A stretch of DNA of 64,000 bases, from contig JAHBTD010000002.1 in the NCBI GenBank assembly GCA_019638775.1, positions 496,001 through 560,000 of the forward strand, read 5' to 3'. Under the pieces are notes generated by a model. The model searched no databases. It was not told the origin of the DNA and worked only from the letters and a program-made list of their open reading frames with translations. This DNA is from Fimbriimonadaceae bacterium (GTDB lineage: Bacteria > Armatimonadota > Fimbriimonadia > Fimbriimonadales > Fimbriimonadaceae). Positions 28,565 through 46,057 of this stretch are shown in pieces (positions within the stretch are counted from its first letter, which is position 1; the number at the start of each line of letters is the position of its first letter). Made by a program: the position numbers and the translations under genes.

Positions 28565-28641
<77 letters not shown>

Positions 28642-28647
28642 CGCCTT

Positions 28648-28661
28648 TTTTGAACCTAAAT
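28648..28661 (-). repeat. 14-bp arm-type repeat, inverted copy, left end
   Basis: TTTTGAACCTAAAT, the exact reverse complement of the ATTTAGGTTCAAAA found at 45935-45948 and 46044-46057. It starts 8 bases after the tRNA end. Likely recognition site for the integrase or an excision factor. Confidence 0.6.
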
Positions 28662-28751: not shown

Positions 28752-30728
28752 CTACGCCGCGATTTGCTCTTCACTCAGAGAGTAGATATCAGCACGGCGC
28801 TTTTTGCCAATGACTTTGATAGCTCGCCCCTTTTTCAGCTCTGAAAGCCGATTCCCGAGGGTTTTGGCGTTTTGGCCTGTTCGTTCTACTAACTCATCTT
28901 TGGTGAGCCCCTCAGGGCATTCTCGAAGCTCACTCAAGATGTTCTCATCAGCAAAGTACTTTGACTTTGATACTCCATCGGGCTTTTCTCGCAACTCGTA
29001 CGAAGCCGGTCCCGAAGAGTAGATGGTCCAAACCCGACGGCTGAAATCGCCTCGACCCGCGCCATGAAGCGTTATCCAGCGGGTTCCGTCGGAGTTCTCT
29101 TCATGCTCCATGAGCAGGTCAAGAGAGACCGCCGCAAGAATTTGGTTGGAATCGGCCATACGTTCACGGTTCATGCCAGACGCAACGTTCTTATTGATGT
29201 GATGCAGAAGCACACAGGCGATTCTCTCACTGGCACAAAGCTCTTTAAGGCCCGTGAGGACCTTCCGAGCTTGCCGACCGTCTGAGAGCGTGTCAGTATT
29301 GGTGGCTGCATAGAGAGGGTCGATAATCAGAAGACGAGCCCCTGACTGACGGATGCACTGCCGCAACAGATACATGTCCGCTGGCTTTTCGAGGCAGAAC
29401 TTGTAGTGGCTGATAAGCAGGTTTGAAGTCACCTCATACTCTTTCAGCACTAAAGCCCGCTCGGTCTGACTCTCCTCGACCGCCAACCACATGACCGGAC
29501 ACCGAGTCGTCGGAAGGCCAAGGAACGGTTCACCCTTAGCCACGGCCATAGCCAGAGCCGTCGCAAAGCACGACTTCCCAGCCTTCGACCCTCCAGCAAG
29601 CAGGGCAAGAAAGGTAGCAGGCAAAAGCCCTTCAACTATCCAATCCATGCCACGCTCCTCGCTCTCCTGCATGTACTCCGGCATAGCCACAAAAACCTCC
29701 TCAAAGCTCTGGACTGCCAAGCCCTCGCCATTCTCATCTTGGAAGTCACCACAAAAAGAAAAGTTGGCAAAGTCGAGGTCTTCCCAACTTTCTTTTTCTA
29801 TAGAGGGATGATGAAGTTGCACGGTCGATTTTCGAGCCTCAAAGATGGCCTTGGCCGCCTTCGAAAAATCTCCGCCATGGTTCAAAAGCGCGTACGCCGC
29901 GAACGGCGAATAGCAGTTGTTAGGCTCAAAGGGGTGAGAGTTAGGTGAGAAGTTGAAAAACCAATTCGGGTTTTTATTTGCGAACCCTACAACCGCGCTA
30001 TGAGTACCGGCCCTTTCCCCTGGCCTTCGCCAATACTCCTTTCGACCTGATATGCCCGTGAGGTCCCACCCATGGGGTTCTAAGACTTCTCGCCAAGAAA
30101 CGTTCTCGTTAAACCAGTCTCCTGGCCGCATAGAACCATCGGGCGCTCTCTCGACCTGAACTCTCTCTGCCGGACTAACAGAAGCACGTATCGGCACCTC
30201 GACCCCGAGTTCAGCCAAAGAAACGACCGGAATCGGTTCCTTAATAGGATTCACCCAAACGCGAGTCTCGCCTTCGGGATGAATGGTCGGGGGCATGACG
30301 ACGAATTTCCCTTGCGCTAAGAGGTCACCGCATGACTGGTGGTCCCCACAAAGGCTGAAGGTCGAGGACTGCAAAGGCCCCTCAGTGCGAAGATAGACGT
30401 GATATCGGTCCCCACGTCGGTCGGTCGGCAGTACAGCCGCCCAAGCGGGGAAGAGGCCCTTCCAGGCCTCATAAGTCCCCTCTCGGTCGAAGTCAAGCAC
30501 ACACAGAAAGCCGCTGACTTCACCACACATGACACCCATGCCGATATCACGAGAGAACCAGCTTTCGAGATTCGATTCAGGGACCATGCTCGCTTGGTAA
30601 CCGCTCCACGCTATCCGGCGAATTCTCCCGTTTCCGTCGGCAATGCTTGGAGTTTTCTCTCTGTGAGCCACAGGAACCACATTGAGGCCAAGGCTTCGCA
30701 GCCTCTTTGCTTCATTGAGGTTGCTCAC
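28752..30728 (-). CDS. Prim-pol/AAA helicase replication protein of the element
   Basis: 658 residues with a primase-polymerase domain (about 1-180) holding VLDFDREGT as acidic metal motif and DRYHVYL further on, then a RepA/AAA_25-like helicase with Walker A GGSKAGKSC at 379-387 and Walker B LLIIDP near 467-472. The tail (about 595-650) is a winged helix: LTKDELVERTGQNAKTLGNRLSEL. The GTG start at 30728 overlaps the stop of the upstream gene (GTGA). This architecture is typical of replication initiators in satellites and integrative plasmid-like elements, so the element may replicate after excision. Confidence 0.88.
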   Translation of the reverse strand: MSNLNEAKRLRSLGLNVVPVAHREKTPSIADGNGRIRRIAWSGYQASMVPESNLESWFSRDIGMGVMCGEVSGFLCVLDFDREGTYEAWKGLFPAWAAVLPTDRRGDRYHVYLRTEGPLQSSTFSLCGDHQSCGDLLAQGKFVVMPPTIHPEGETRVWVNPIKEPIPVVSLAELGVEVPIRASVSPAERVQVERAPDGSMRPGDWFNENVSWREVLEPHGWDLTGISGRKEYWRRPGERAGTHSAVVGFANKNPNWFFNFSPNSHPFEPNNCYSPFAAYALLNHGGDFSKAAKAIFEARKSTVQLHHPSIEKESWEDLDFANFSFCGDFQDENGEGLAVQSFEEVFVAMPEYMQESEERGMDWIVEGLLPATFLALLAGGSKAGKSCFATALAMAVAKGEPFLGLPTTRCPVMWLAVEESQTERALVLKEYEVTSNLLISHYKFCLEKPADMYLLRQCIRQSGARLLIIDPLYAATNTDTLSDGRQARKVLTGLKELCASERIACVLLHHINKNVASGMNRERMADSNQILAAVSLDLLMEHEENSDGTRWITLHGAGRGDFSRRVWTIYSSGPASYELREKPDGVSKSKYFADENILSELRECPEGLTKDELVERTGQNAKTLGNRLSELKKGRAIKVIGKKRRADIYSLSEEQIAA

Positions 30729-31183
30729 GCCGCCACCCCCATACCATCACCGAAGAGGTCTTGTTGAAGCGCCGCCGCCGGTGGTTTCGGCTGTGGTCCA
30801 TAATCGGAGGGTTGAGGCCGCTTTTGCCACCATGCAAGCCCCAAAGCCGTTTGAGGATTGAAACCCCGATTTACTGGAAAACCGTGCTTGATAAAATCAT
30901 GGTGCCAAGCCACGAAGTATTGGCCGGTTTCTCGGTCTTGGAGCTGGTGATACTTCACTCCGAGCTTCTGAGCTTCGTTCAATGCCGAAACGTCCATGGC
31001 AAAGGCCGGTGGCGTTCGGAGTTGGTGGCGTTCGACCGAAATACGCTTGGTCGAATAAAGCCGACCCTGGTCGTCGGTTTGTACTCGGGCGATGACTCGA
31101 CCCTCCGCAGTGTGAAGGGTCTGATGCCGTGTTTTGAACTTAAATGCTGTTTTCGTTTTACTTTTTTGATTACACTGAAACAT
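30725..31183 (-). CDS. Unknown accessory protein upstream of the replication gene
   Basis: 152 residues, rich in Gln and Arg. An N-terminal basic stretch is followed by a small beta-rich region (GRVIARVQTDDQGRLYSTKRIS; YHQLQDRETGQYFVAWHHDF) and a Pro/Gln-rich C-terminal tail ending DLFGDGMGVAA. Its stop overlaps the GTG start of the prim-pol gene by 4 bp, so they are coupled. No family recognised; likely a replication or regulatory accessory protein. Confidence 0.65.
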   Translation of the reverse strand: MFQCNQKSKTKTAFKFKTRHQTLHTAEGRVIARVQTDDQGRLYSTKRISVERHQLRTPPAFAMDVSALNEAQKLGVKYHQLQDRETGQYFVAWHHDFIKHGFPVNRGFNPQTALGLAWWQKRPQPSDYGPQPKPPAAALQQDLFGDGMGVAA

Positions 31184-31930: not shown

Positions 31931-32473
31931 TCAGACTCGACCGCGCCGGTCTTTCCGTCTTTGATTCCTTTTGTTCTGATAAGCCCAACGCCGCTCCAAA
32001 CGGTCCATCACCGCAACTTCGGTCATAAGCTCATACGCCATGGTTCCGAGCCCGTTAATCGCGTAACGCGGACAACGATGGTTCTGCCGTTGGCACTGGT
32101 AACGAAGCCCCCAACACACTCGACACCGAAGAGCCGCGTAATCGGGTGTGTGATAGAGCTTCTTTCGGCGCTTGCTGCAACCGGGACAAATCCACCAGTT
32201 GCGAAAGCCACCGTTCGGCAGGGAAGTCCTTTCGACCGGATAAACGTCACCTTCGCAAATCTTCCCGCGTTTAAGGCCGATGAGCAGCCCGCCGGGGTCC
32301 CTTTCAACCCAGCTGCCCCATTGAGGGTCCTCACCGTCATAACGCCACCAGATAAGAGGGCAAATCTCAAGGAACTCAACCGTCTCGACGAGCGAATCCA
32401 CATCGAACGAAGCACACTCCTCGACACACCTTTTTCGAGCCGTCCATTGCCGCCCGCTGCACCAACTGCCCAT
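31931..32473 (-). CDS. Zinc-ribbon protein common in mobile elements
   Basis: 180 residues. The core is WWICPGCSKRRKKLY, 10-15 residues, then LRCRVCWGLRYQCQRQN, a double CxxC knuckle preceded by WRYDGEDPQWGSWV. The start MGSWCSGRQW with RKRCVEECASFDVDSL resembles a family I know from proteobacterial integrative elements, where it is annotated as hypothetical. Probably nucleic-acid binding. Reads away from the defence operon. Confidence 0.7.
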   Translation of the reverse strand: MGSWCSGRQWTARKRCVEECASFDVDSLVETVEFLEICPLIWWRYDGEDPQWGSWVERDPGGLLIGLKRGKICEGDVYPVERTSLPNGGFRNWWICPGCSKRRKKLYHTPDYAALRCRVCWGLRYQCQRQNHRCPRYAINGLGTMAYELMTEVAVMDRLERRWAYQNKRNQRRKDRRGRV

Positions 32474-32862
32474 ATCTATTTAGACGTTTGAAAGAGCCCC
32501 AGAATGGCCCTCTCAGGGCCTTGAAATACTGATAGGTGATTTGCCTCATGCAAGGCATAAAGAGAGGCTCTACGGCCCTGCTGGATGGTGGAAACACGAG
32601 TGCCAGAGTCAGGTTTTGCAAGGGTTGTCAGTCATGCCTATGGTCTGGCTTCTATGAAGGATTTTGAAACTCTGCACAACCGTGGGGCAATTTGAGATTC
32701 ACCTTAGAGCAACTGATTCGGTAATCTCTCGGGCGTTCTGCGTAAACGGGGAAGAGATTTAAGACGAGCATTCAACTAAACTGGGTCTCTATCAGACCTG
32801 TCACTTGAAGAGCCAAATCTTTGCCCCAGCAGGGCAGGCGGTAGTGCTACCGATTGCTATGA
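32474..32862. other. Intergenic region upstream of the defence operon
   Basis: About 390 bp without a gene, between the divergent zinc-ribbon gene and the SNF2 helicase gene. It must hold the promoter of the defence operon, but no clear -35/-10 pair or large inverted repeat stands out. A GGGGTG stretch just past its end, at 32865-32870, may be the ribosome site of the first gene. Confidence 0.4.
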
Positions 32863-32919
32863 CTGGGGTGCCACATTTTTGCTACAACTGAGTATCACGC
32901 AAAGTACTTTGCGCACAAT

Positions 32920-35730
32920 TTGACGAGACAAGCCTCTCGCGAGGGACTTGAAAGACTTTCAATGGCGCTTTTTGACGCCAACGTCGACCTAAACCCACAC
33001 CAGATTGAGGCCGCTCTTTTTGCGCTAAGGTCCCCTGTCTCGAAGGGTGTTATCCTTGCGGATGAGGTTGGGCTCGGCAAGACTATCGAGGCGAGTTTAG
33101 TGTTATGCCAACTGTGGGCTGAGCGCAAGAGAAAGCTTCTAGTCATTTGTCCTGCTTCAATCAGAAAACAATGGGCAAACGAGCTGGATGAAAAATTTAA
33201 CTTGCCCTCAATCCTGTTGGATGCCCGAGCCTATAACCTTGCAAAGAAGGCTGGCTCAATCAGTCCCTTTGATTGCGGCAAAGTAGTGATTTGTTCGTTG
33301 AATTTCGCTGCAAGGATGAAGGACGAGATTCGGTCAATAGGGTGGAATTTGGTCGTTATTGATGAAGCACACAAGCTGAGAAATGCTCATCAGCCAAGCA
33401 ACAAGACTGGGCAAGCTATCCGATTCGCAGTTGAAGAGCCCCGGAAAATTCTCCTTACGGCAACACCACTCCAGAACTCAATAATGGAGCTCTTTGGAAT
33501 GTCGTCAATAATTGACGAATACATGTTTGGGGAGCCATCCGTTTTCCGGTCGCTATATGGTGGAGCCGATGCTGACCTAAGCGACCTCAAGACGCGCCTT
33601 CGAGGTTTCTGCAAAAGAACGCTTAGGAAGGACGTATTGGAATACGTCCAGTACACGAACAGACAAGCGATAACCAGACCGTTCAGACCAACTGACGACG
33701 AACACGCATTTTATGAAGCTATTTCCAGCTTCCTGCAACGAGCCGAGACATTTAGTATTCCGCATCGCCAGCGAGTGCTCTTGACCCTGAGATTGAGGAA
33801 GATTCTTGCATCTTCTTCTCCCGCAATAGCTGGCACTCTTGAAATCATACGACAGCGTCTGATTGAACTGAAGGCAGGCGTCCCCGAAGGCGATTTGGTG
33901 GACAAAGTCATTGCCGGAGAAGACCTTGACGAAGACGACTTCCTAGAGGAATCTCTTGACATAGAAGAGCCCGAGGCCGACATACCCACAATTGATATTG
34001 CAAAACTCGAAGCAGAAATACAAGAGCTCGACCAGTACATTCGGTGGGCGAGAGGTATAGGGGTTGACACCAAGTCAAAGGCGCTTCTGAGCGCACTTGA
34101 AATCGGATTTACGAAGATGCAGGAAAATGGCGCTGCAAAAAAAGCCCTCATTTTCACCGAGTCACGCCGCACCCAAACCTACATCCGAAATTTCCTTGAA
34201 GCCAACGGATTCGCTGGAAAGGTCGCAACCTTTAATGGCTCAAACAACGATGAAGAATCAAAAAAACTAGCCGACCGTTGGGTCATCGAAAATAGAGGCA
34301 CTGGTCGCGTAACAGGGTCGCGAGACGTTGACGCTCGCTCGGCCATCATCGACCACTTCAAAAATGACGCCGAAATTCTCGTCGCCACAGAAGCCGCCGC
34401 CGAAGGAGTAAATCTTCAGTTCTGTTCCTTGGTCGTAAACTACGACCTTCCATGGAATCCTCAGCGCATTGAACAAAGAATCGGACGATGTCACCGGTAC
34501 GGTCAAAAGCATGACGTCGTGGTCATCAACTTTGTTAATGAGAGGAATGCAGCCGACCAACGCACATTCGAACTGCTCGAAGAAAAGTTTCAACTCTTCG
34601 ATGGCGTTTTTGGGGCGTCAGACGAAGTGTTGGGAAGTATTGAGTCCGGTGTCGATTTCGAAAAACGAGTTTACGATATATACCAATCGTGCCGTACGCC
34701 CGACCAAATTGAAGCGGCTTTCAAAGACCTTCGCGAGCAACTTGAATCAAGCATACAAGCTCGTATGACGTCGACCAGACAATTATTGCTGGAGTTTTTT
34801 GACGAAGAGATTCACCAGCGTCTTCGGCTCCAGCTTGAAGGTACTAAGCAACAGCTCGACCGATTTGGGAAGCAATTCTGGTTGCTGACAAAGCACGTTA
34901 TTTCGGACTCCGCTAAGTTTGATGACGACGAGCTGGCGTTCGAGTTGACTGGTGCACCACGTCCAGACATTAAGGCTGGAAAGTACCACCTCATTTCAAA
35001 GAGCAGAGAAAATGTGGATGGAGAATTTCTGTATCGACTCTCACATCCTCTTGGGGAATATGTCGTTGACGAAGCAAAGGCCGGGGCAACGCCACTTGCC
35101 AACGTGACGTTTGATATTTCAAGCCACCCGACTCGTATGAGCGTTGTTGAAGACCTTAGAGGTAAGTCAGGCTGGATGACACTTGATAAACTCATCATCG
35201 ACGCCTTTGAACGTGAGGAATATATTTTGCTTTCCGGGTTCTCGGATGACGGTGCCTCGATAGACCAGGAAGTGCTTGAGAAAATGTTTCTCTGCCGCGG
35301 ACAAGTACACGAGATAAACGACTTGCAAATGCCTGACCGGCTGAATGCCGAATCCACCCAACACCAGAAAGCAACGATGCACCAATCGTTCGAGGCAAAT
35401 AACCGATTCATGAACGAGGAACGAGAACGGCTGGAGAATTGGGCGGACGACATGATTCTCTCTGCTGAGAAGGAACTCAAGGACATCAAAGCCCAGCTTC
35501 GAGAAACAAACCGCCAAGCGCGACAGGCTCCAACGACCGAAGAGCAGCTCACACTTCAAAATAAAATCCGGGACCTTGAGCAGAAGCAACGCAAGCAACG
35601 TCAAAGGATTTTTGAAATTGAGGACGAAATCATCGAAAAGCGTGACCAGCTCATTGGAGCCCTTGAAAAGCGAATGAAGCAAAAGACACAAAGCTCAAAC
35701 CTGTTCACTATTCGCTGGAGAGTTGTCTGA
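32920..35730 (+). CDS. SNF2/RapA-type superfamily 2 helicase, first gene of defence operon
   Basis: 936 residues from the TTG at 32920. Helicase motifs: I ILADEVGLGKTIEA (46-59), II VIDEAHKLRN (148-156), III LLTATPLQN, and VI QRIEQRIGRCHRYGQ (about 515-530). The C-terminal 120 residues are a long coiled coil. The frame is open upstream to 32863; residues EYHAKYFAHNL encoded just before the TTG match what I remember of homologues, so the real start may be an ATT at 32875 behind GGGGTG. It ends with TGATG overlapping the DUF262 gene. Probably a DNA translocase. Confidence 0.9.
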   Translation: MTRQASREGLERLSMALFDANVDLNPHQIEAALFALRSPVSKGVILADEVGLGKTIEASLVLCQLWAERKRKLLVICPASIRKQWANELDEKFNLPSILLDARAYNLAKKAGSISPFDCGKVVICSLNFAARMKDEIRSIGWNLVVIDEAHKLRNAHQPSNKTGQAIRFAVEEPRKILLTATPLQNSIMELFGMSSIIDEYMFGEPSVFRSLYGGADADLSDLKTRLRGFCKRTLRKDVLEYVQYTNRQAITRPFRPTDDEHAFYEAISSFLQRAETFSIPHRQRVLLTLRLRKILASSSPAIAGTLEIIRQRLIELKAGVPEGDLVDKVIAGEDLDEDDFLEESLDIEEPEADIPTIDIAKLEAEIQELDQYIRWARGIGVDTKSKALLSALEIGFTKMQENGAAKKALIFTESRRTQTYIRNFLEANGFAGKVATFNGSNNDEESKKLADRWVIENRGTGRVTGSRDVDARSAIIDHFKNDAEILVATEAAAEGVNLQFCSLVVNYDLPWNPQRIEQRIGRCHRYGQKHDVVVINFVNERNAADQRTFELLEEKFQLFDGVFGASDEVLGSIESGVDFEKRVYDIYQSCRTPDQIEAAFKDLREQLESSIQARMTSTRQLLLEFFDEEIHQRLRLQLEGTKQQLDRFGKQFWLLTKHVISDSAKFDDDELAFELTGAPRPDIKAGKYHLISKSRENVDGEFLYRLSHPLGEYVVDEAKAGATPLANVTFDISSHPTRMSVVEDLRGKSGWMTLDKLIIDAFEREEYILLSGFSDDGASIDQEVLEKMFLCRGQVHEINDLQMPDRLNAESTQHQKATMHQSFEANNRFMNEERERLENWADDMILSAEKELKDIKAQLRETNRQARQAPTTEEQLTLQNKIRDLEQKQRKQRQRIFEIEDEIIEKRDQLIGALEKRMKQKTQSSNLFTIRWRVV

Positions 35731-37574
35731 TGGCTGAAATCACTGCTTTCTCTAGTGACAAAGAGTTCCTTGATGCCCTGCTTAAGGGCATTTCAGAGGG
35801 CAAGACTCAGCTGCCCGAGTTTCAGCGCGGTTGGGTTTGGGACGACTCACACATTCGCAGCTTGCTGGCAAGCATTTCGCTCTCCTATCCAATTGGTGCG
35901 GTCATGATGTTGGAGACAGGCAACCCGGATGTCAAGTTCAAGCCTCGTCCGGTCGAAGGCGTAGAGCTTGAGCAGGGGGTGAATCCAGACCGCTATATTC
36001 TCGATGGTCAGCAACGGCTCACATCCTTGTTTCAATCGGTCTTTTTAGCCAAAGCAGTGAGGACTCGGGATGCAAGAGGAAAGGCGCTCGACCGCCTCTA
36101 CTACATCAAAATGGAAGCATCGCTCGACCCCGATGGCGACCGTGAAGAAGCCATCATTGGAATCCCTGCCGACAAAAAGGTGCGCAACTTCCGGAACGAA
36201 GTTTTGGTGGACTATTCGAACGCAGACTCCGAGTATGAGGCGCTGCTGTTTCCCCTCAATCAAGTCTTCCATACTTACAACTGGCGAGCCGGGTTTAACA
36301 AACATTGGGAGCATGCTCCTGAGAAGACAAAGCTCTTCGATGACTTCGAGCAGAATGTCTTGGAAGCATTTAGAAAGTACCAAGTCCCGGTCATTCTCCT
36401 AAAGAAGCAGACTCCCAAGGATGCCGTCTGTCAGGTCTTCGAGAAGGTCAATACCGGCGGTGTTTCACTGACCGTATTCGAACTTGTCACTGCGACCTTC
36501 GCGGCAGAAGAATTTGACCTTCGGGAGGATTGGGAAGGGGCGCGAAGTCCAACGGGGAAGAAGGTCGGGGATGGGAGGGGCGACAGACTGCGCAAACAGC
36601 CTGTCTTAAGGGGGGTCACAGCTCCCGATTTCCTGTCGACGGTCACCCTTTTATCAACATGGCACAGGAAGCAATCCAGCCCTGAATCGGCCGTGAGCTG
36701 CAAGCGGGCAGACATACTGAGATTGCGTCTCGCCGATTACAAGCAGTGGGCAGACCGAGTAACCCAAGGATTCGAGAGCGCGGCTCGGTTTCTGATGAGG
36801 GAGAAGATATTCAGCTCCGACCAACTGCCTTATTCAACCCAGCTTGTCCCACTGGCTGCCATATACGTTGCGCTCGGAGATAAGGCAGAGTCGGATGCTG
36901 TGCGAAGCAAGCTCACCCGATGGTACTGGTGTGGCGTCTTTGGCGAGCTCTACGGCAGTACGGTGGAAAGCCGATTTGCAAAGGACCTGCCGGAAGTCTT
37001 AGCCTGGGTCAACGGAGGAGAGGAGCCGAGCACGGTCCAAGAGTGCAACTTTTCGCCAGGAAGATTGCATACATTGAGAACGAGGCGTAGCGCAGCGTAC
37101 AAGGGGCTCTCGGCGATACTGATACGCAACGGGGGCTTGGACTTTCGGACGGGCGACCCCATCGACCTCCAGCTCTACTTTGATGATAAAATCGACGTTC
37201 ACCACATCTTTCCTCAGGACTACTGCAGAAAGAGAGGAATCGACGCTCGGCTCTACGACTCCATCGTCAACAAAACACCGCTTTCGGCTAAGACGAATCG
37301 AATCATAGGCGGTCGGACGCCCTCCGAATACCTCGGCAGGCTAAGCAGTTCAATGGGGATGGACGAAGGTCGATTAGATGAAATTCTGCAATCTCATTTG
37401 GTGGATGTTGCCGCAATGAGAGCCGATGACTTCACGGCTCATTTCGAGGCACGTCAGGAAGCTTTGCTGCAACACATCGAGCAGGCAACCGGCAAGAGAA
37501 TCGCGCGGCAAGCTATCGATAGCGACGAGGATGACGAGTTTAACGATAATGGCCAGGAAGAAGGCAACGAATGA
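35730..37574 (+). CDS. DUF262 protein with C-terminal HNH nuclease
   Basis: 614 residues. The DUF262 domain has LPEFQRGWVWD (28-38) and ILDGQQRLTSL (90-100), the conserved DGQQR motif tied to nucleotide binding and hydrolysis. Near residue 488 comes VHHIFPQDYC followed by LYDSIVNKTPLSAKTNR, the HNH (DUF1524-like) nuclease. GmrSD-type proteins combine these two domains and cut modified DNA using NTP. Overlaps neighbours on both sides by 1-4 bp. Acidic C-terminus (DSDEDDEFNDNGQEE). Confidence 0.9.
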   Translation: MAEITAFSSDKEFLDALLKGISEGKTQLPEFQRGWVWDDSHIRSLLASISLSYPIGAVMMLETGNPDVKFKPRPVEGVELEQGVNPDRYILDGQQRLTSLFQSVFLAKAVRTRDARGKALDRLYYIKMEASLDPDGDREEAIIGIPADKKVRNFRNEVLVDYSNADSEYEALLFPLNQVFHTYNWRAGFNKHWEHAPEKTKLFDDFEQNVLEAFRKYQVPVILLKKQTPKDAVCQVFEKVNTGGVSLTVFELVTATFAAEEFDLREDWEGARSPTGKKVGDGRGDRLRKQPVLRGVTAPDFLSTVTLLSTWHRKQSSPESAVSCKRADILRLRLADYKQWADRVTQGFESAARFLMREKIFSSDQLPYSTQLVPLAAIYVALGDKAESDAVRSKLTRWYWCGVFGELYGSTVESRFAKDLPEVLAWVNGGEEPSTVQECNFSPGRLHTLRTRRSAAYKGLSAILIRNGGLDFRTGDPIDLQLYFDDKIDVHHIFPQDYCRKRGIDARLYDSIVNKTPLSAKTNRIIGGRTPSEYLGRLSSSMGMDEGRLDEILQSHLVDVAAMRADDFTAHFEARQEALLQHIEQATGKRIARQAIDSDEDDEFNDNGQEEGNE

Positions 37575-40500
37575 GTTCTAATTACGACAAGCTGCTCGCG
37601 AAGCTGACCGAGATGTTCCAGCTCGACCAGGCGGACCTCGATTTCGGCATCTACCGAATCATGAACTCGAAGCGAGACGAGATTGTCCGATTCCTGGAGA
37701 AGGATTTGCTGCCGCAGGTCAAGTCAGTTCTCGCAACTGCTCAGGGAGACATTGAAACGGCTGGAGCAGAGGAACTTACTACCCTCGAAAAGCAAATTCG
37801 TGACGCAGGGATGAATCCCGATGACAGTCCGAAGGTTCAAGAGCTTCGCGCCAAGTATGCCGGTGGCGGAGACATTGGGGCGCTTGAACAAGAAGTCTTC
37901 AACCACCTCTATAGCTTCTTCCGCCGATACTACGATGAAGGTGATTTCCTGAGCCTGCGCCGGTACAAGGAAGGCGTCTATGCCATCCCCTATGAGGGCG
38001 AAGAAGTCAAACTCCACTGGGCAAACGCCGACCAGTATTACATCAAGACCGCCGAGCACTTCCGCGACTTCATCTTCAAGGTCGGCCCAGAAAAAGGACA
38101 ACGGCGGGTGCACTTCAAGCTGGTTGAAGCTCAAACTGAAAAGGACAACAATAAGGAGCAGGAGAAGCGCGTCTTCATCCTCTCAGAGGAGAACCCGGTC
38201 GTCGAAGAGAACGGCGAGCTCATCATCCGGTTCGAGTATCGGAACGACTCGGCAAATCGAAAGCAGAAAGACCTGTCTGAGGCAGCGATCACTATCATCT
38301 TAGATGCTGCCCCAGCTAGCTGGAAAGCTCTGCTGACCATACCAACCGACAAAGACCCGAATCGAACCATCCTTGCGAAGCGGTTGAACGACTTCACCGC
38401 CCGAAACACGTTCGACTATTTCATCCACAAAGACCTAGGCGGATTCCTGCGTCGGGAGCTCGATTTCTACATTAAGAACGAAGTAATGCACCTCGACGAC
38501 ATCGAGAACGAAGCAGCACCGAAGGTCGAGCAATATCTCGCGAAAGTTCGAGCGATTCGTCGGGTCGCCAGCAAAATCATAGAGTTTCTCGCTCAACTGG
38601 AAGAGTTCCAAAAGGCGCTCTGGCTCAAGAAGAAGTTCGTGGTTTCCTGCGATTATCTCGTCACTCTCGACCTAGTGCCAATCGAGCTGTATCCGGCTAT
38701 CATCGAGAACGAGTGTCAAATCGAAGATTGGTTGCGTAATTTCGCAATCGAAGACTTAAAGGACACGCTCGAAGCCAAGGGGTATTCGACCCCAGTTACT
38801 GAAGCTTTTCTGAAGTCGCACCCTAATCTCACCATTGACACTCGGCACTTCGGTGAGGATTTCAAAGTCAGATTAATCGGAGCGCAGAGTTCGCTGGATG
38901 AAACTATCACCGGCTTCGCCATCCAAGGTGACAATTTTCAAACCTTGAGATTGACGTCGCGCTATCTTAAGCGCAGGGTTTCAAGCATCTACATAGACCC
39001 GCCATACAACGCCAAATCATCGGAGATTCTGTACAAGAACGATTATAAGCATGCATCCTGGCTCTCGTTGATGCAAGACAGATTGTCACCGGCAAAGCAC
39101 CTCCTCAAAGAGGACGGCGTGCTGGTAGTTGCGATTGACGAAGTGGAGCAGGAGCGCCTAGGGCAGCTCATTTCCAATCTTTTCCCAGGCTTTGAAAAGA
39201 GCTGTATTGTCGTAAACCACAACCCATCGGGACAGCAGGGAGACAACTTCTCATTTACCCACGAATATGCATACTTCGTCTATCCTCGACCAGGACGTTA
39301 CATCGCAGAACAGACGCGTGAGAATCCAGATGACTGGGATGACCGGAATTTCCGTGATGTCACTGGCGATGAGTCACTTAGGACTGCGGCCGCCAATTGC
39401 TTCTACCCAATCTTAGTCAAGGACGGTGAAGTCGAGGGGTTCGGAGACGTTTGCCCAGAGGACTGCCATCCACCAATCAATGTCGAGCTGGACGGTGGTG
39501 TCATCGCTGTCTACCCCGTTGACCCCAATGGCATCGAACGCAAGTGGAGGTTCGCCAGACAGACGGTTGAGAGCGTAAAGCACGAACTCAAAGTACATCA
39601 GCTCGGGCGACGAGGTGTGATTGACATAAAGCGTGTGAAGAAGACCTTCAACTACAAGTCAAATTGGGTCGACGCCCGCTACTCGGCAAACAACCACGGA
39701 ACTCAGCTGCTTAACCAGATGATTCCCAATGCCCCGGTGTCGTATCCGAAATCACTCTATACCGTCAGAGACAGCGTTCTTGCCTCACTAGGCGGTAAGC
39801 CAAGCGGTTGGGTGGTCGACTATTTCGCTGGCTCAGGCACAACGGGTCACGCTGTCATAGCCTTGAATCGTGAAGACCTAGGCAAGCGACGCTTCTTGCT
39901 GGTTGAAATGGGCACTTACTTTGACACGGTTCTTGTCCCTCGCCTCAGAAAGGCTATGTATTCCAGTTCATGGACTGCGGGCAAGCCGCAGGCAATGGAT
40001 GGCGTGTCCGGTTTCATAAAAGTGTTTCGAATTGAAGCTTACGAGGACTCACTGGCTAACCTGTCATTTCGCTCGCCCAACCCCGACCAAGCCAAACTTG
40101 TGGATTCGAATGATGGCGTACGAGAAGGCTACATGCTCCGCTACATACTGAATGCGGAAACGAGCGGTAGTCTGTCAACTCTCAACATTCAATCCTTCGA
40201 CCATCCATTTGAGTACAAGCTTAAGGTTGCCGCTGACACCGTTGGCGAGACGAGGGAAGTCAACGTTGACCTGGTTGAGACGTTCAACTGGCTTCTCGGG
40301 CTCCGCGTCCACACGATGGACGTGATTCGCGGCTTCCATATTGTCACTGGTCGGTTGCCAGGGCAAGGCAACAGCGAGAACGGCGACAAGGCGCTCATCA
40401 TCTGGCGCGACACGACCGAGAACCCGAACGAAAAGCTCGACGAGTTCTTTGGCAAGCAAGCCTACAACACGCTCGACCAGGAGTTCGATGTCATCTACGT

Positions 40501-40609
40501 GAACGGCGACAACAACCTGCAGAACCTGAGAAAGGACGACCAAACCTGGAAAGTCCGCCTCATCGAGGAAGAGTTCCACCGTCTAATGTGGGATGTGGAG
40601 GGCATTTGA
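37571..40609 (+). CDS. Beta-class adenine DNA methyltransferase, Mod-like, with long N-terminal domain
   Basis: 1012 residues, much longer than a typical type III Mod (about 600-650). The catalytic motif [11 protein letters not shown] (472-482) precedes the AdoMet-binding [15 protein letters not shown] (about 750-765), the order of beta-class N6-adenine enzymes. Before them are some 470 residues of mixed helix and strand with no family I recognise, probably a specificity or interaction domain. The target site cannot be read from sequence. Starts within the DUF262 stop (ATGA). Confidence 0.92.
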
Positions 40610-41772
40610 CCAGTCTGCTCTGGGTCATTGTCATTCTCCTTGCCACGATTCTTGGAGGCGGCGTCGTCGCTTTCAAGCATCTGAAGGCGCTTGGTGAGGG
40701 GCAGAAATCACTTGACGAGAAGCTTTCAGAGCAGACATCGTTGCTCGAAATGTCAAGTTCTGCTGTCTCAAAGTTGGAGCTTCATCACACACCAAGCCGC
40801 CTTGTCTCGATGACATTCGAAGACTTCCTGAAGCGTGCGAGTCTGGATGGTGCTGTCTTTGCTGAGCACCCTGACCTACGGCTAGAACTCGTCAAGGATG
40901 TTACATCAGCGTTGGCGTCGACCACTTCGCTCGGTATCACGCTGAGCTCAAGGTTCGCTGCCTTTGCTCCCCATGTGGAGCCACTTCTGCAAAGTGATGC
41001 TGCGCAGCTCATGATGTCTCAAGGGCAAGAACTGGCTGTTGCGGTTCAAAACGGCAAGTCTATCGGATTCGCCCGAATCGTGCATCCAAGCGCAGTTCAA
41101 ATTGCCTGTCAAGGTTGGCTCATCCTCGTGACAGGAGCTCACATCCTATCGAATCACGAGCTATCGAAGTCCGCAAAGAGAATCGAGCGTGGAGTCGTGC
41201 GACTTCAGGACATCGACGATGCTGACAAGATGGCTCGCCTCGAAACCTGCTTCGAGTATTTGCGCTGGACACGCGCACCGCTTGACGACTATGCCAAGGT
41301 CAATTGCCGCTCGGTGGTCGATGAGCTCCGACAGCTCCGAATCGGTTGGCGCAATCTTCTTGAGACCGAGTTTCGGCGAATCGAAGACCCGACCTGGATT
41401 CAGGCTGTTTTGTTTCCCGTTAAGTCCACCATCGAGGTGGCTCTTGAAGTACAGCGACTAGAAGCATTGTTGGGAAGAATAGAGCTTGCATTTCACCTTG
41501 AAGCGGTTGCCCTTCAAATGCTGGATGAACCCTTTCTTGCGCATTCGTTCTTGACCATCGTAAGAGAAAAAGCAGGGCGGCTCAAACAACTAGCCTCGCT
41601 TCTCGAAAAAAAGTGGAATGAAGCTGAGCAACGTGCGAAGTATGAACCGCCACAGATGGTCACGAGGCTTCGAGAACTCGCGTCAGACTATGCGGTCAGT
41701 CGAGACTTAATGCTGATTCTTGAGCCGGTGGCTCTTGAGTCCAATGTGTCCACGTTGGAGAGTGGCCGCTGA
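40606..41772 (+). CDS. Membrane-anchored coiled-coil protein of the defence operon
   Basis: About 389 residues. A TTG at 40606 follows GGAGGG by three bases and overlaps the methyltransferase stop (TTGA); a GTG at 40588 has no ribosome site. The protein starts with a single transmembrane helix ([20 protein letters not shown]), a coiled coil ([25 protein letters not shown]) and then long helical stretches without known domain. A membrane-bound partner is unusual in a restriction-modification locus. Its stop overlaps the next start (TGATG). Confidence 0.8.
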
Positions 41773-44700
41773 TGCCTCGCGGCCGCCCAAGAGGGTCGGG
41801 CGGGCAACGCCAAATGTTGACCGCTCCCATGCGCTTTGACCAGAAGCTGGTCCTGGTGCGCTGGCTGCTTTCGCTCTTCGACGCCAAGCAGTTTGAAGAC
41901 CTCGCGGCTGACCTGAAGCAACCCGAGCATGAGGGTTGGGAAGAAGACAACACCTCCAAGTTTCTAAGCCAGCTCCTGCGGCGCACGGTTGAGTATTCAG
42001 GCGTTAAGAACGACGACCTCACTCGCTATGACAACAACATCTTTCGCCACACCCAAGCGAGCGTCGCAGAGCACGAGAAATTCGAAGGCTGGAAATACTT
42101 CCAATATCTGAGCCTGCTCTTCGCAGAAATTTATCTCGACCGCTATTTCCGCGACCCACATGGACTGCTCAGCGAGCTGAACGTCTTCTCGCGAGAGTTC
42201 TGCCAAGAGACCGGAGCGGGCATCGAGCCATACAAGCTGGAAGACCTGCGCAAGCTCGCCTTCTGGAGCGCCACGGGGTCTGGAAAGACGCTATTGATGC
42301 ACGTCAACATCCTTCAGTACAAGCACTATCTGAAGGAACACGGTCGCGAGCGAGACTTGAACCGAATCATCCTTCTTACGCCCAACGAAGGGCTTTCGCG
42401 GCAGCATCTTGAGGAGTTTGCTTTGTCTGGCATGGAAGCGGACATCTTCCGAAAGGATGGGGCATCTCTGTTCTCAGGTAACGCAGTAGAAATCATCGAG
42501 ATTCAGAAGCTCAAGGAAGAGATGGGCGACAAGACGGTCGCCATCGAAGCCTTTGAAGGGAATAACTTGGTGCTGGTCGACGAGGGGCATCGAGGCGCTG
42601 GTAGTGACGGTACTTGGATGGAAATGCGCCGTCGGCTCTCCGAGCAGGGGTTCTCATTTGAATACTCGGCGACGTTCGGACAGGTGATTCGGGCCTCGAC
42701 CGGTGCGAACCGTACCAAGCTGGAGCAGGAGTACGCCAAGTGCATCTTGTTTGATTACTCGTACAAATATTTTTATCGTGACGGCTACGGAAAGGAATAT
42801 CGAATCCTGAATCTCGCCAACGATGACGACGACGAGATTCGAAGTCTCTATCTGTCTGCGTGTCTACTATCGTTCTATCAGCAGCTTCGGCTGCACAAAG
42901 ACAGGCGGGAGGAGTTCGCAAAGTTTCTCATCGAAAAGCCACTCGCCATCTTTGTTGGTGGCAGCGTAACCAAGACGCTTTCCGACCGGGACGCCTCCGA
43001 CGTGGTGTCGGTTTTGCTGTTCCTGAAAGAGTTCATCTCGAACCGGTCCGTATCAGAATCGAGGCTAAGTCGACTCCTAAACTACGACGGTACACTGCGT
43101 GACCAGAAAGGCAGACCTGTCTTCGGCTCGGGTGCCTTCGACTACTTGAACACGGTGGGATTGACCGCAGAACAAGCATTTGCGGGAATCCTGGAGCTCA
43201 TGTTCAATGCTCCGTTCCAAGCGGCTCTCCACGTCGACTTGCTCAAGGGTTCGGACGGTGAACTGACCCTCCGGCTTGGAGATAACGTGCCATTTGGAGT
43301 CATCAATGTCGGTGACGCTCCGAAGCTCCATGCCGTTTGCGAAAAGGCTGGACTTATCACCGAGGAGAAGCAGTTCAGCGGTTCGGTCTTCGCTCGATTG
43401 AACAACAAGGACTCTGGCGTCAACGTCTTGATTGGCTCACGTAAGTTCACGGAAGGCTGGAATAGCTGGCGAGTTTCGACGATGGGGCTCATGAACATCG
43501 GTCGTTCGGAGGGCTCACAAATCATCCAATTGTTTGGTCGAGGGGTCCGACTAAAGGGTCACGCGATGAGCTTGAAACGCTCGTCGATGCTTGACCTGAA
43601 TCCGAAGCCGCCCAAGTCGTTGCGGTTCCTTGAGACCCTCAACGTTTTCGGTGTCCGAGCCGACTACATGACGCAGTTCAAGGAGATGCTCGAAGCGGAG
43701 GGTGTACCTCCTGGTGATTTCGAGGACGTGTTCGAGCTTCCCGTCATCAACAACCTTGGGTCGAAGAAACTCAAAGTGCTTGATGTGCCAAAGGACGTTG
43801 ACTTCAAACGCCAGGGCAAGAAGCCTCATCTCGAACCGCCCTTCCCCGGATTGGCTCCAGTCTCGCTGAACTGGTATCCGAAGATTCAGGCGCAGCAGAG
43901 CAAAGGGGCTGGTCGACCTGCGGATGAGATTGCACTAGAGACTCACAAGTTCTCCCCAATGCACACGGCATTCTTCAACCTCGACGAGATTTGGTTTGAG
44001 CTCCAGAACTACAAGGCAGAGCGGTCTTGGTACAACCTCAACCTCTCTCGCGAGTCGGTCATTGAACTGCTCCAGCGGGATGACTGGTACACCCTCTATA
44101 TCCCCGAAGCCGAACTGGAGTTCACGGACTTTGGCAGGGTGCGCCGTTGGCAGGAAATTGCGGTCGCGCTTCTCAAGAAGTACGTCGAGCGACTCTATCT
44201 CTACCGAAAGGCGGAGTTCGAGCGCCCTCACACCCAATATCGGGAAATCACCCCTGATGACCCGAACTTCATCCAGCAATATCGGATTTGGGTGGACCAA
44301 GGGCGAGAGGAAGTCATTACAAAGCTCAACGAGCTGAAGGCGTTGATTGAGTCCGGCCAGCTGAGAGAAGATGGCTGGTCTTTCGATTCGCTCGTTGCAC
44401 TCGGCTTCTCTCGCCATTTGTATCGACCCCTTTTACATCTCAAGAATAAGGTCTTGGAGATTTCACCGGTGCCACTTAATGTTGGCGAGCAAGACTTTGT
44501 CGAGGACTTACGCAAGTTCTACGAGGGCAATCGAGACTTTTTCAACGGACGCGAACTCTACTTGCTGCGAAATATGAGTCGGGGGCGCGGAATAGGCTTT
44601 TTCGAGGCTGGCAACTTCTATCCTGACTTCATTCTCTGGTTGGTCGAGGGCGACCGTCAGTTTGTGACTTTCATCGACCCCAAGGGCATCCGCCAATTGT

Positions 44701-44948
44701 CGGGACTGAATGACCCCAAGATTGAGTTCTCAAAGACCATCAAAGAGTTAGAAGTGCGCCTTGATGACCCATCCGTAGTTCTGAACTCGTTCATTGTCGC
44801 AACAACTCCGTTCAAGTCCATTGGGTGGTGGGCAGGCGACGAGAAACGAGAGTTCGAAGACCGGAACGTGCTCTTTCAGGTCGAAGACAAAAACACGTAC
44901 ATAGAAGCGATGCTGACGAGGGTTTTGGAACCTGCCAGCATCGCGTGA
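41772..44948 (+). CDS. Res-like SF2 helicase with C-terminal PD-(D/E)xK nuclease
   Basis: 1058 residues. Helicase motifs: Walker A WSATGSGKTLLM (166-176), DEGHRG (about 268), YSATF, and QLFGRGVRLKG for motif VI. Near residue 950 is FYPDFILWLVEGDRQFVTFIDPKG, a PD...DxK nuclease core like that of type III Res subunits, which translocate and cut when two sites are unmethylated. It is the last gene of the operon and is 30 bp from the end of the convergent integrase gene. Confidence 0.92.
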   Translation: MPRGRPRGSGGQRQMLTAPMRFDQKLVLVRWLLSLFDAKQFEDLAADLKQPEHEGWEEDNTSKFLSQLLRRTVEYSGVKNDDLTRYDNNIFRHTQASVAEHEKFEGWKYFQYLSLLFAEIYLDRYFRDPHGLLSELNVFSREFCQETGAGIEPYKLEDLRKLAFWSATGSGKTLLMHVNILQYKHYLKEHGRERDLNRIILLTPNEGLSRQHLEEFALSGMEADIFRKDGASLFSGNAVEIIEIQKLKEEMGDKTVAIEAFEGNNLVLVDEGHRGAGSDGTWMEMRRRLSEQGFSFEYSATFGQVIRASTGANRTKLEQEYAKCILFDYSYKYFYRDGYGKEYRILNLANDDDDEIRSLYLSACLLSFYQQLRLHKDRREEFAKFLIEKPLAIFVGGSVTKTLSDRDASDVVSVLLFLKEFISNRSVSESRLSRLLNYDGTLRDQKGRPVFGSGAFDYLNTVGLTAEQAFAGILELMFNAPFQAALHVDLLKGSDGELTLRLGDNVPFGVINVGDAPKLHAVCEKAGLITEEKQFSGSVFARLNNKDSGVNVLIGSRKFTEGWNSWRVSTMGLMNIGRSEGSQIIQLFGRGVRLKGHAMSLKRSSMLDLNPKPPKSLRFLETLNVFGVRADYMTQFKEMLEAEGVPPGDFEDVFELPVINNLGSKKLKVLDVPKDVDFKRQGKKPHLEPPFPGLAPVSLNWYPKIQAQQSKGAGRPADEIALETHKFSPMHTAFFNLDEIWFELQNYKAERSWYNLNLSRESVIELLQRDDWYTLYIPEAELEFTDFGRVRRWQEIAVALLKKYVERLYLYRKAEFERPHTQYREITPDDPNFIQQYRIWVDQGREEVITKLNELKALIESGQLREDGWSFDSLVALGFSRHLYRPLLHLKNKVLEISPVPLNVGEQDFVEDLRKFYEGNRDFFNGRELYLLRNMSRGRGIGFFEAGNFYPDFILWLVEGDRQFVTFIDPKGIRQLSGLNDPKIEFSKTIKELEVRLDDPSVVLNSFIVATTPFKSIGWWAGDEKREFEDRNVLFQVEDKNTYIEAMLTRVLEPASIA

Positions 44949-44978: not shown

Positions 44979-45890
44979 CTAATTCATGCCGTCCACCGGA
45001 CTGCATTTCTCGTGAGCTTTCACAATATCTGCATCGGTTTGAGCGAGGTAGCGCCTCAGAACGCCGAGGTCGGCATGGCCGAGCAAGTGTTGAACGCTAA
45101 AGATATCAGCGCCGTTTCTCAGCATCATCAAAGCGCACGTCCGACGGAACTTATGCGGGTGAGCGTGAACGCCCGCCGCTTTCCCGAGCTTCTCAATCGT
45201 CTCAGCTATCCCCAGTGCCGTCATAGGGCCTTGACGGCCAATCCAAAGCGTGTCCCCGACCTTTCCGCCACGCATACGCAGGTACTTGGTAAACGCCTTG
45301 AGCGAGTTGGCCCCGAGCCTCATTACACGCTCTTTTCTGCCCTTTCCAAGCACTTTGGCAAGTCCGGTGTCGGTATTCACGTCTCCGACCTTCAAAGCCG
45401 CGCATTCGGCCAATCTGAGGCCCGTGTCGAGCAGGGTCAGAACGAGCGCCCGGTTCCGCACGTCCCTGGAGTCTTTCCCCTGGGTGGCCTTCATAAGAAG
45501 GCCAATCTCGGTTTCGGTAAATGCCGGGAGTATCGTTTGGTCGAGCTTCGGCATTTTCACCTTGCGCATAGGGTTTGAAACAAGAAGCTCTTCACGCTCA
45601 AGGAAATTAAAGAGCGCACGAACGCCGCGCATGATGGCATGAACGCTATTCGGCTTCATCGACCCTTCGAGGTCGAGCATGAATTCCCGAATGTGTGACG
45701 CGCCGACCTCTTCAAGCGCTTGCACCCCTCGGGCTTCGAGCCACGACCGAAATCGGCCAAGGGCAAAGTCGTAGTATTCAAGGGTCCTTGGCGAGTGCCG
45801 CGAAACCCTCTGATGAAGGTCAAATTCGCGCAAAGCGGTGTCGAGTGTCAGGTTCAAAGAATTTTGGCGAGTAAGTTGCTCTAACGTCAT
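44979..45890 (-). CDS. Tyrosine recombinase/integrase of the element
   Basis: 303 residues. The N-terminal SAM-like core-binding domain (about 15-105) is followed by the catalytic domain with Arg159 in TGLRLAE, His246 and Arg249 in HPHKFRRT, His272 in LLGHADL and nucleophile Tyr281 in RRYLA. It resembles XerC/D-type phage integrases. Placed 77 bp inside the right attachment repeat, as expected for an island integrase. It would insert into and excise from the tRNA-Lys gene. Confidence 0.94.
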   Translation of the reverse strand: MTLEQLTRQNSLNLTLDTALREFDLHQRVSRHSPRTLEYYDFALGRFRSWLEARGVQALEEVGASHIREFMLDLEGSMKPNSVHAIMRGVRALFNFLEREELLVSNPMRKVKMPKLDQTILPAFTETEIGLLMKATQGKDSRDVRNRALVLTLLDTGLRLAECAALKVGDVNTDTGLAKVLGKGRKERVMRLGANSLKAFTKYLRMRGGKVGDTLWIGRQGPMTALGIAETIEKLGKAAGVHAHPHKFRRTCALMMLRNGADIFSVQHLLGHADLGVLRRYLAQTDADIVKAHEKCSPVDGMN

Positions 45891-45934: not shown

Positions 45935-45948
45935 ATTTAGGTTCAAAA
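45935..45948 (+). repeat. 14-bp arm-type repeat, right end, inside element
   Basis: ATTTAGGTTCAAAA, a direct copy 17 bases before the tRNA-like segment. In the excised circle this and the inverted copy at 28648-28661 would flank the core. Confidence 0.6.
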
Positions 45949-45964
45949 TCACGACTTTTACATC

Positions 45965-46041
<77 letters not shown>

Positions 46042-46043
46042 GT

Positions 46044-46057
46044 ATTTAGGTTCAAAA
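46044..46057 (+). repeat. 14-bp arm-type repeat, copy outside the element
   Basis: A third exact ATTTAGGTTCAAAA, lying just past the right direct repeat, thus in the chromosome flank. It may belong to an older or tandem insertion. Confidence 0.55.

Follow-up and report, generated by a model that had tools for sequence, protein, structure and literature searches.

A predicted Type III restriction-modification operon with an extra SNF2-type ATPase gene and two probable embedded accessories on a tRNA-Lys element of a Fimbriimonadaceae bacterium

The operon of five genes (A to E) described here is probably a Type III restriction-modification (R-M) system with a third ATPase, which is carried on a tRNA-Lys element and holds two embedded accessories, one of them (B) possibly acting as a backup nuclease. 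It lies in a 64,000-nucleotide stretch of DNA (the window) from a Fimbriimonadaceae bacterium. Judged from the sequences, A, C and E almost certainly belong to the Type III R-M subgroup in which mod is preceded by an additional SNF2-type ATPase gene. Genes B and D are very likely embedded accessories, one per intergenic slot, and they are exchangeable between operons. Within the reach of the searches, the D family is new, and so is the frequency of embedding in SNF2-Mod-Res operons of Type III. Hundreds of Type III loci carry the extra ATPase, and operons with the same core and varied inserts, several of them in E. coli, offer a natural series for testing its role and the reason for embedding. 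Undescribed defence genes may also be sought in the slots, D being one candidate.

The element and the operon

The features of the element are as follows.

28568..28641, + strand: left attachment repeat, made up of 73 bases from the 3' end of the gene for tRNA-Lys(CTT) at 28565-28640 and one further base (ARAGORN; 74 bp identical to 45968-46041)
28752..30728, - strand: element replication protein with a Prim-Pol primase and an AAA_25 helicase domain (Pfam PF09250, PF13481)
32875..35730 (frame open from 32863), + strand: A, SNF2/RapA-like ATPase (Pfam PF00176, E 3e-34)
35730..37574, + strand: B, DUF262 (GmrSD_N) and HNH protein in the SNF2-Mod slot (Pfam PF03235, E 4e-30)
37571..40609, + strand: C, long Type III Mod methyltransferase (N6_N4_Mtase; PADLOC MTase_III, 759 bits)
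40588..41772, + strand: D, 394-aa mostly helical protein with an N-terminal membrane helix in the Mod-Res slot (no family match)
41772..44948, + strand: E, Type III Res with an SF2 ATPase and a PD-(D/E)XK nuclease (ResIII; PADLOC REase_III, 732 bits)
44979..45890, - strand: element integrase, a tyrosine recombinase (Pfam PF00589, E 5e-33)
45968..46041, + strand: right attachment repeat, the displaced tRNA-Lys(CTT) copy (ARAGORN; 74-bp identity)

The integrated element is 17.4 kb long and is bounded by the identical 74-bp tRNA-Lys repeat. The right tRNA-Lys copy was taken as the displaced one, since the acceptor stem is paired in the left copy and unpaired in the right (by eye). A preliminary description had placed five overlapping genes as cargo in such an element, and both points were borne out, the latter by the repeat, the tyrosine recombinase and the prim-pol protein. 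The five ORFs (32863/32875-44948) are all on the + strand, with successive overlaps of 1, 4, 22 and 1 bp, within the 1-22 bp given there. The domain assignments of that description were also recovered: the Type III-like Mod/Res pair, the added SNF2 helicase, the GmrSD-like DUF262-HNH protein and the membrane-anchored protein.

The sequence ATTTAGGTTCAAAA occurs at 28648-28661 (-), 45935-45948 (+) and 46044-46057 (+); these are exactly three copies genome-wide, all at the element ends, and they are possible arm sites of the recombinase. Two further ORFs of the element on the - strand, at 30725-31183 (152 aa) and 31931-32473 (180 aa), are without any Pfam match, and the CxxC pairs of the latter resemble a zinc ribbon.

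Two known systems were tried as candidates and rejected. The absence of a BREX set, as described earlier, was confirmed by PADLOC, with pglZ, brxC and pglX absent among the operon genes and the scanned element ORFs. The genes drmA, drmB and the DISARM methylase were likewise absent among the operon genes, so that the earlier statement on DISARM stands, save for a DrmD-like score of the SNF2 protein under the curated cut-off.

The SNF2-Mod-Res core

The motif order of C is that of the beta class, as in Type III enzymes, with DPPY (476) preceding FAGSG (752) and both motifs intact; its solved relatives are Mbo45V and EcoP15I Mod. The motifs of E are also intact (GSGKT 169, DEGH 270 and the C-terminal PD951...DPK), and a comparison of E with solved structures gave no match. 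A has intact GLGKT and DEAH motifs, and RapA is its nearest relative among solved structures. Its best family matches are to DrmD, with 661 bits in PADLOC and 665 bits in NCBIfam against an NCBIfam cut-off of 950.

The gene start of A had been set at 32863. This position stands as the opening of the + frame, and it is merely where the SNF2 frame opens past a stop codon. Upstream of the conserved N-terminus YHAKYFAH there is no ATG, GTG or TTG, and the start codon is probably ATT 32875 or CTG 32863. TTG 32920 is the earliest of the common start codons, and its use would remove residues that are conserved in relatives. A GGGG run is located shortly 5' of the ATT codon at 32875 (region 32859-32922), which might mark a non-canonical start.

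Murray et al. (2021) described Type III systems that make m4C; in two of them, Eco86II and BspHIV, a gene for a helicase-like ATPase precedes mod, an arrangement present in more than 500 genomes (PMC8259958). The characterised members of the subgroup methylate a single strand of an asymmetric motif (m4C); the extra ATPase was dispensable for methylation and was not observed in the active Eco86II preparation (PMC8259958). In the Eco86II group it is thus dispensable for cutting as well. The E. coli NCTC86 locus (L108) was located, and its gene order SNF2-Mod-Res is homologous to that of the window; Eco86II was assigned to this locus because one Type III system is reported for NCTC86 (PMC8259958). 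Window A shares 52.5% identity with the helicase of this locus over the full length (946 columns), whereas the identities are 42% and 38% for two pieces of Mod and 39% for Res. The gene order in the window is that of Eco86II and BspHIV, with an SNF2-type gene first, then a long beta-class Mod and finally Res; in contrast to both, the SNF2-Mod and Mod-Res junctions of the window are filled by the accessories B and D. The homologous order was also found in Kangiella aquimarina DSM 16071 (L048), which is listed with the motif GGACT (PMC8259958). The preliminary description had cautioned that a described system might exist under another name, and for the core this was right, the subgroup of Murray et al. 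(2021) being that system.

The Mod alignment was scanned against 84,980 species genomes, which gave 80 loci from many phyla. Among the 59 relatives with room on both sides, SNF2 was present in 48 and Res in all 59, and the order was SNF2-Mod-Res in 56 of the 57 loci holding all three genes. The pairwise distances of SNF2, Mod and Res are correlated (r 0.45-0.83), and 0 of 999 permutations were as high. SNF2 also adjoins Mod and Res on plasmids of Klebsiella, Priestia, Blastomonas and others, according to the plasmid searches.

Some loci showed peculiarities. In L042, two tandem Mod genes of about 1000 aa each, which share 40 and 45% identity with that of the window, lie between SNF2 and Res. 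In two E. coli loci (L107 and L105), a small HTH gene that bears the name mads1 (MAD1) in the NCBI annotation is located directly 5' of the SNF2 gene of the Type III operon; the name derives from another defence system, and the annotation may mislead.

Genes in the two slots

The slots were compared across 56 complete SNF2-Mod-Res loci, including the window (L028 and L029 are near copies). At least one slot holds an insert in 30 of them, and none does in the other 26; the SNF2-Mod slot is filled in 13, the Mod-Res slot in 23, and both in 6. Loci without SNF2 have a Mod-Res insert about as often (6/11), so the slots are independent of SNF2. Inserts of at least 95 aa are co-directional with the core in 55 of 58 cases. 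Moreover, 62 of 82 insert-core junctions (76%) fall within -110 to +50 bp, whereas 18 of 109 outer neighbours (17%) share the direction of the core and fall within this distance (Fisher p 1e-16, odds ratio 16, with some dependence among related loci). The shared direction and the tight junctions indicate that the inserts are probably co-expressed with the core.

A tree of the Res proteins from 60 loci, with changes counted on well-supported branches, implies 16 or more changes in slot occupancy and 8 or more for HEC-01. Occupancy showed no extra clustering, with 19 changes against a mean of 20.3 for shuffled labels. More than 20 other inserts occupy the slots held by B and D in the window. Of the representatives scanned against Pfam and PADLOC, most are defence genes, either known or candidate. 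The families include HEC-01 (AAA + DUF4276), ietAS, Abi_2, YhcG/PDC-S02, SoFic and AbiJ-like PDC-S32, and also PD-Lambda-2 B-like, Schlafen AlbA, RhuM, PLD, HNH and GmrSD proteins; a sigma factor (L032) and a transposase (L047) are inserts of non-defence type. For example, the SNF2-Mod slot of E. coli is empty in NCTC86 and is occupied by ietAS in NCCP15648, by Abi_2 in 2014C-3011 and by a DUF262-DUF1524 gene, in the place of B, in STEC309; the last three loci form a divergent branch with a shorter Mod.

Embedding of this kind ('guilt by embedding') was reported for Hma and other systems in the preprint of Payne et al. (2024), as far as it is represented by the papers citing it (PMC11411939, PMC12255303, PMC12988326). 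In that account, HEC-01 and the GmrSD-like HEC-05/06 also lie inside a multi-gene system; the host operon in the window is SNF2-Mod-Res. Literature on embedding was found for Type I, BREX and Hma and none for Type III, in a search outside of which the text of Payne et al. (2024) lay.

The PF03235 match of B reaches 105.8 bits (cut-off 33.2), with DGQQR at 92, and its HNH motif is intact (HHIFP 491, N514, N523). There is no Pfam DUF1524 match, and HNH_4 scores 15.2 bits, under the cut-off of 22. In a Dehalococcoidia locus (L035), a homologue 58% identical to B occupies the same slot, with D489, H491-H492, N514 and N523 in common, and D is lacking. Other homologues are standalone or next to apparent Type I gene fragments (by eye). 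On a Nostoc plasmid (L128), a homologue (44%) is located directly 3' of DISARM drmC; this is also a close relative of B beside a defence operon, but the host system is DISARM. A structure model of B from a two-sequence input was too poor for a fold search (mean pLDDT 36).

D has one N-terminal hydrophobic helix, followed by further helices. No match was found in Pfam, PADLOC or NCBIfam. When D was sought in plasmids, in viral contigs and in 291 genomes from the host's phylum, it turned up only in the window and in one other genome of the host's family (G074), where a protein of 54% identity is in the same slot. By its sequence D is a new protein family. Its single-sequence structure model was likewise too poor for a fold search (pLDDT 43). 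In G074, B is absent, and a different 138-aa gene is at its position.

Proposed working, alternative readings and Mod specificity

By analogy with characterised Type III enzymes, Mod would mark one strand of a short asymmetric motif, and a Mod2Res1 complex would find unmarked sites in entering DNA, move along the DNA after ATP hydrolysis and cut nearby; for this subgroup, the ATP-dependent cut would be expected at unmethylated sites in inverse orientation. The SNF2 protein may clear or remodel protein-bound DNA, or may couple the complex to the accessories. In B, the DUF262 domain might sense modified bases using NTP and the HNH domain might cut, so that B would attack phages whose modified DNA blinds Mod and Res. 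D might be a membrane-tethered helical second effector, possibly abortive; its standing as an effector is tentative.

The chances that B is a modification-dependent nuclease are about even. This role is suggested by its family, whose members GmrSD, BrxU, TgvAB and SspE act on modified DNA, namely modified cytosine for GmrSD and phosphorothioate DNA for SspE. BrxU, a modified-cytosine nuclease whose gene is flanked by brxC and pglX, provides complementary defence (PMC8565348). TgvAB, which also acts on modified cytosine, is a pair of GmrSD type encoded within a Type I operon (PMC11411939). Both are embedded in operons that target unmodified DNA, which provides a parallel for B. The BREX case is similar in having a DUF262-nuclease gene inside a methylation-based defence operon (PMC8565348); however, the host operon in the window is Type III, and B is an HNH protein without a DUF1524 match and with a marginal sequence match to BrxU (E 0.3). 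TgvAB is similar in that GmrSD-family genes lie between R-M genes (PMC11411939), whereas in the window one DUF262-HNH protein is encoded within a Type III operon, together with an unrelated membrane protein. B may act independently of the Type III core, since its homologues are also standalone or beside DISARM.

The main rival is a guard model, in which the Type III complex keeps B, D or both inactive; once a phage blocks restriction, they would kill or arrest the cell, in the manner of PrrC from a Type I operon. The inserts are embedded yet mutually unrelated in sequence, many are of abortive type (Abi_2, AbiJ-like, Fic, ietAS, HEC-01), PrrC and PARIS are named R-M guardians (PMC12707154), and D is membrane-anchored. 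This guarding role is nevertheless rather unlikely, because the NTPase and HNH motifs of B are intact, tested members of its family hit modified or phosphorothioate DNA, and B homologues also occur alone or beside other systems. Another proposal, which we regard as quite improbable, is that SNF2-Mod-Res is a shared sensor platform in which SNF2 relays the detection or inhibition of restriction to the slot effectors; if true, the core would serve as an immune chassis for plug-in effectors, and D would represent a new family of membrane effectors. It is unlikely that the inserts are hitch-hikers functionally unconnected to the core. Their scatter on the tree, equal to that of shuffled labels, would fit such passengers, whereas the shared direction, the tight junctions and the defence families of most identified inserts argue against them.

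The preliminary description had treated the five genes as one dedicated system. The tight overlaps throughout are in line with a machine made of A to E, but this reading is very improbable: SNF2-Mod-Res recurs, but without B and D as conserved partners, the full set was seen only in the window, the relatives G074 and L035 lack B and D, respectively, and many other inserts use the same slots. The possibility raised there of genes found apart in relatives applies to B and D (G074, L035) and does not apply to SNF2, Mod and Res. It is hardly credible that the operon is a form of DISARM in which the SNF2 gene stands for drmD, since the DrmD matches that favour it remain under the NCBIfam cut-off and Mod and Res are Type III. 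The third-ATPase Type III system with embedded accessories is the preferred reading.

The core of G074 is 81% (SNF2), 88% (Mod N-terminus) and 81% (Res) identical to that of the window, whereas the identity falls to 26-48% in the Mod recognition region (about residues 400-750). In this comparison (window 37571-40609 against L011 and L125), the recognition region has been replaced relative to G074, whereas both ends of Mod are mostly 80-100% identical. The diverged recognition region between conserved ends indicates that specificity was also swapped, by recombination.
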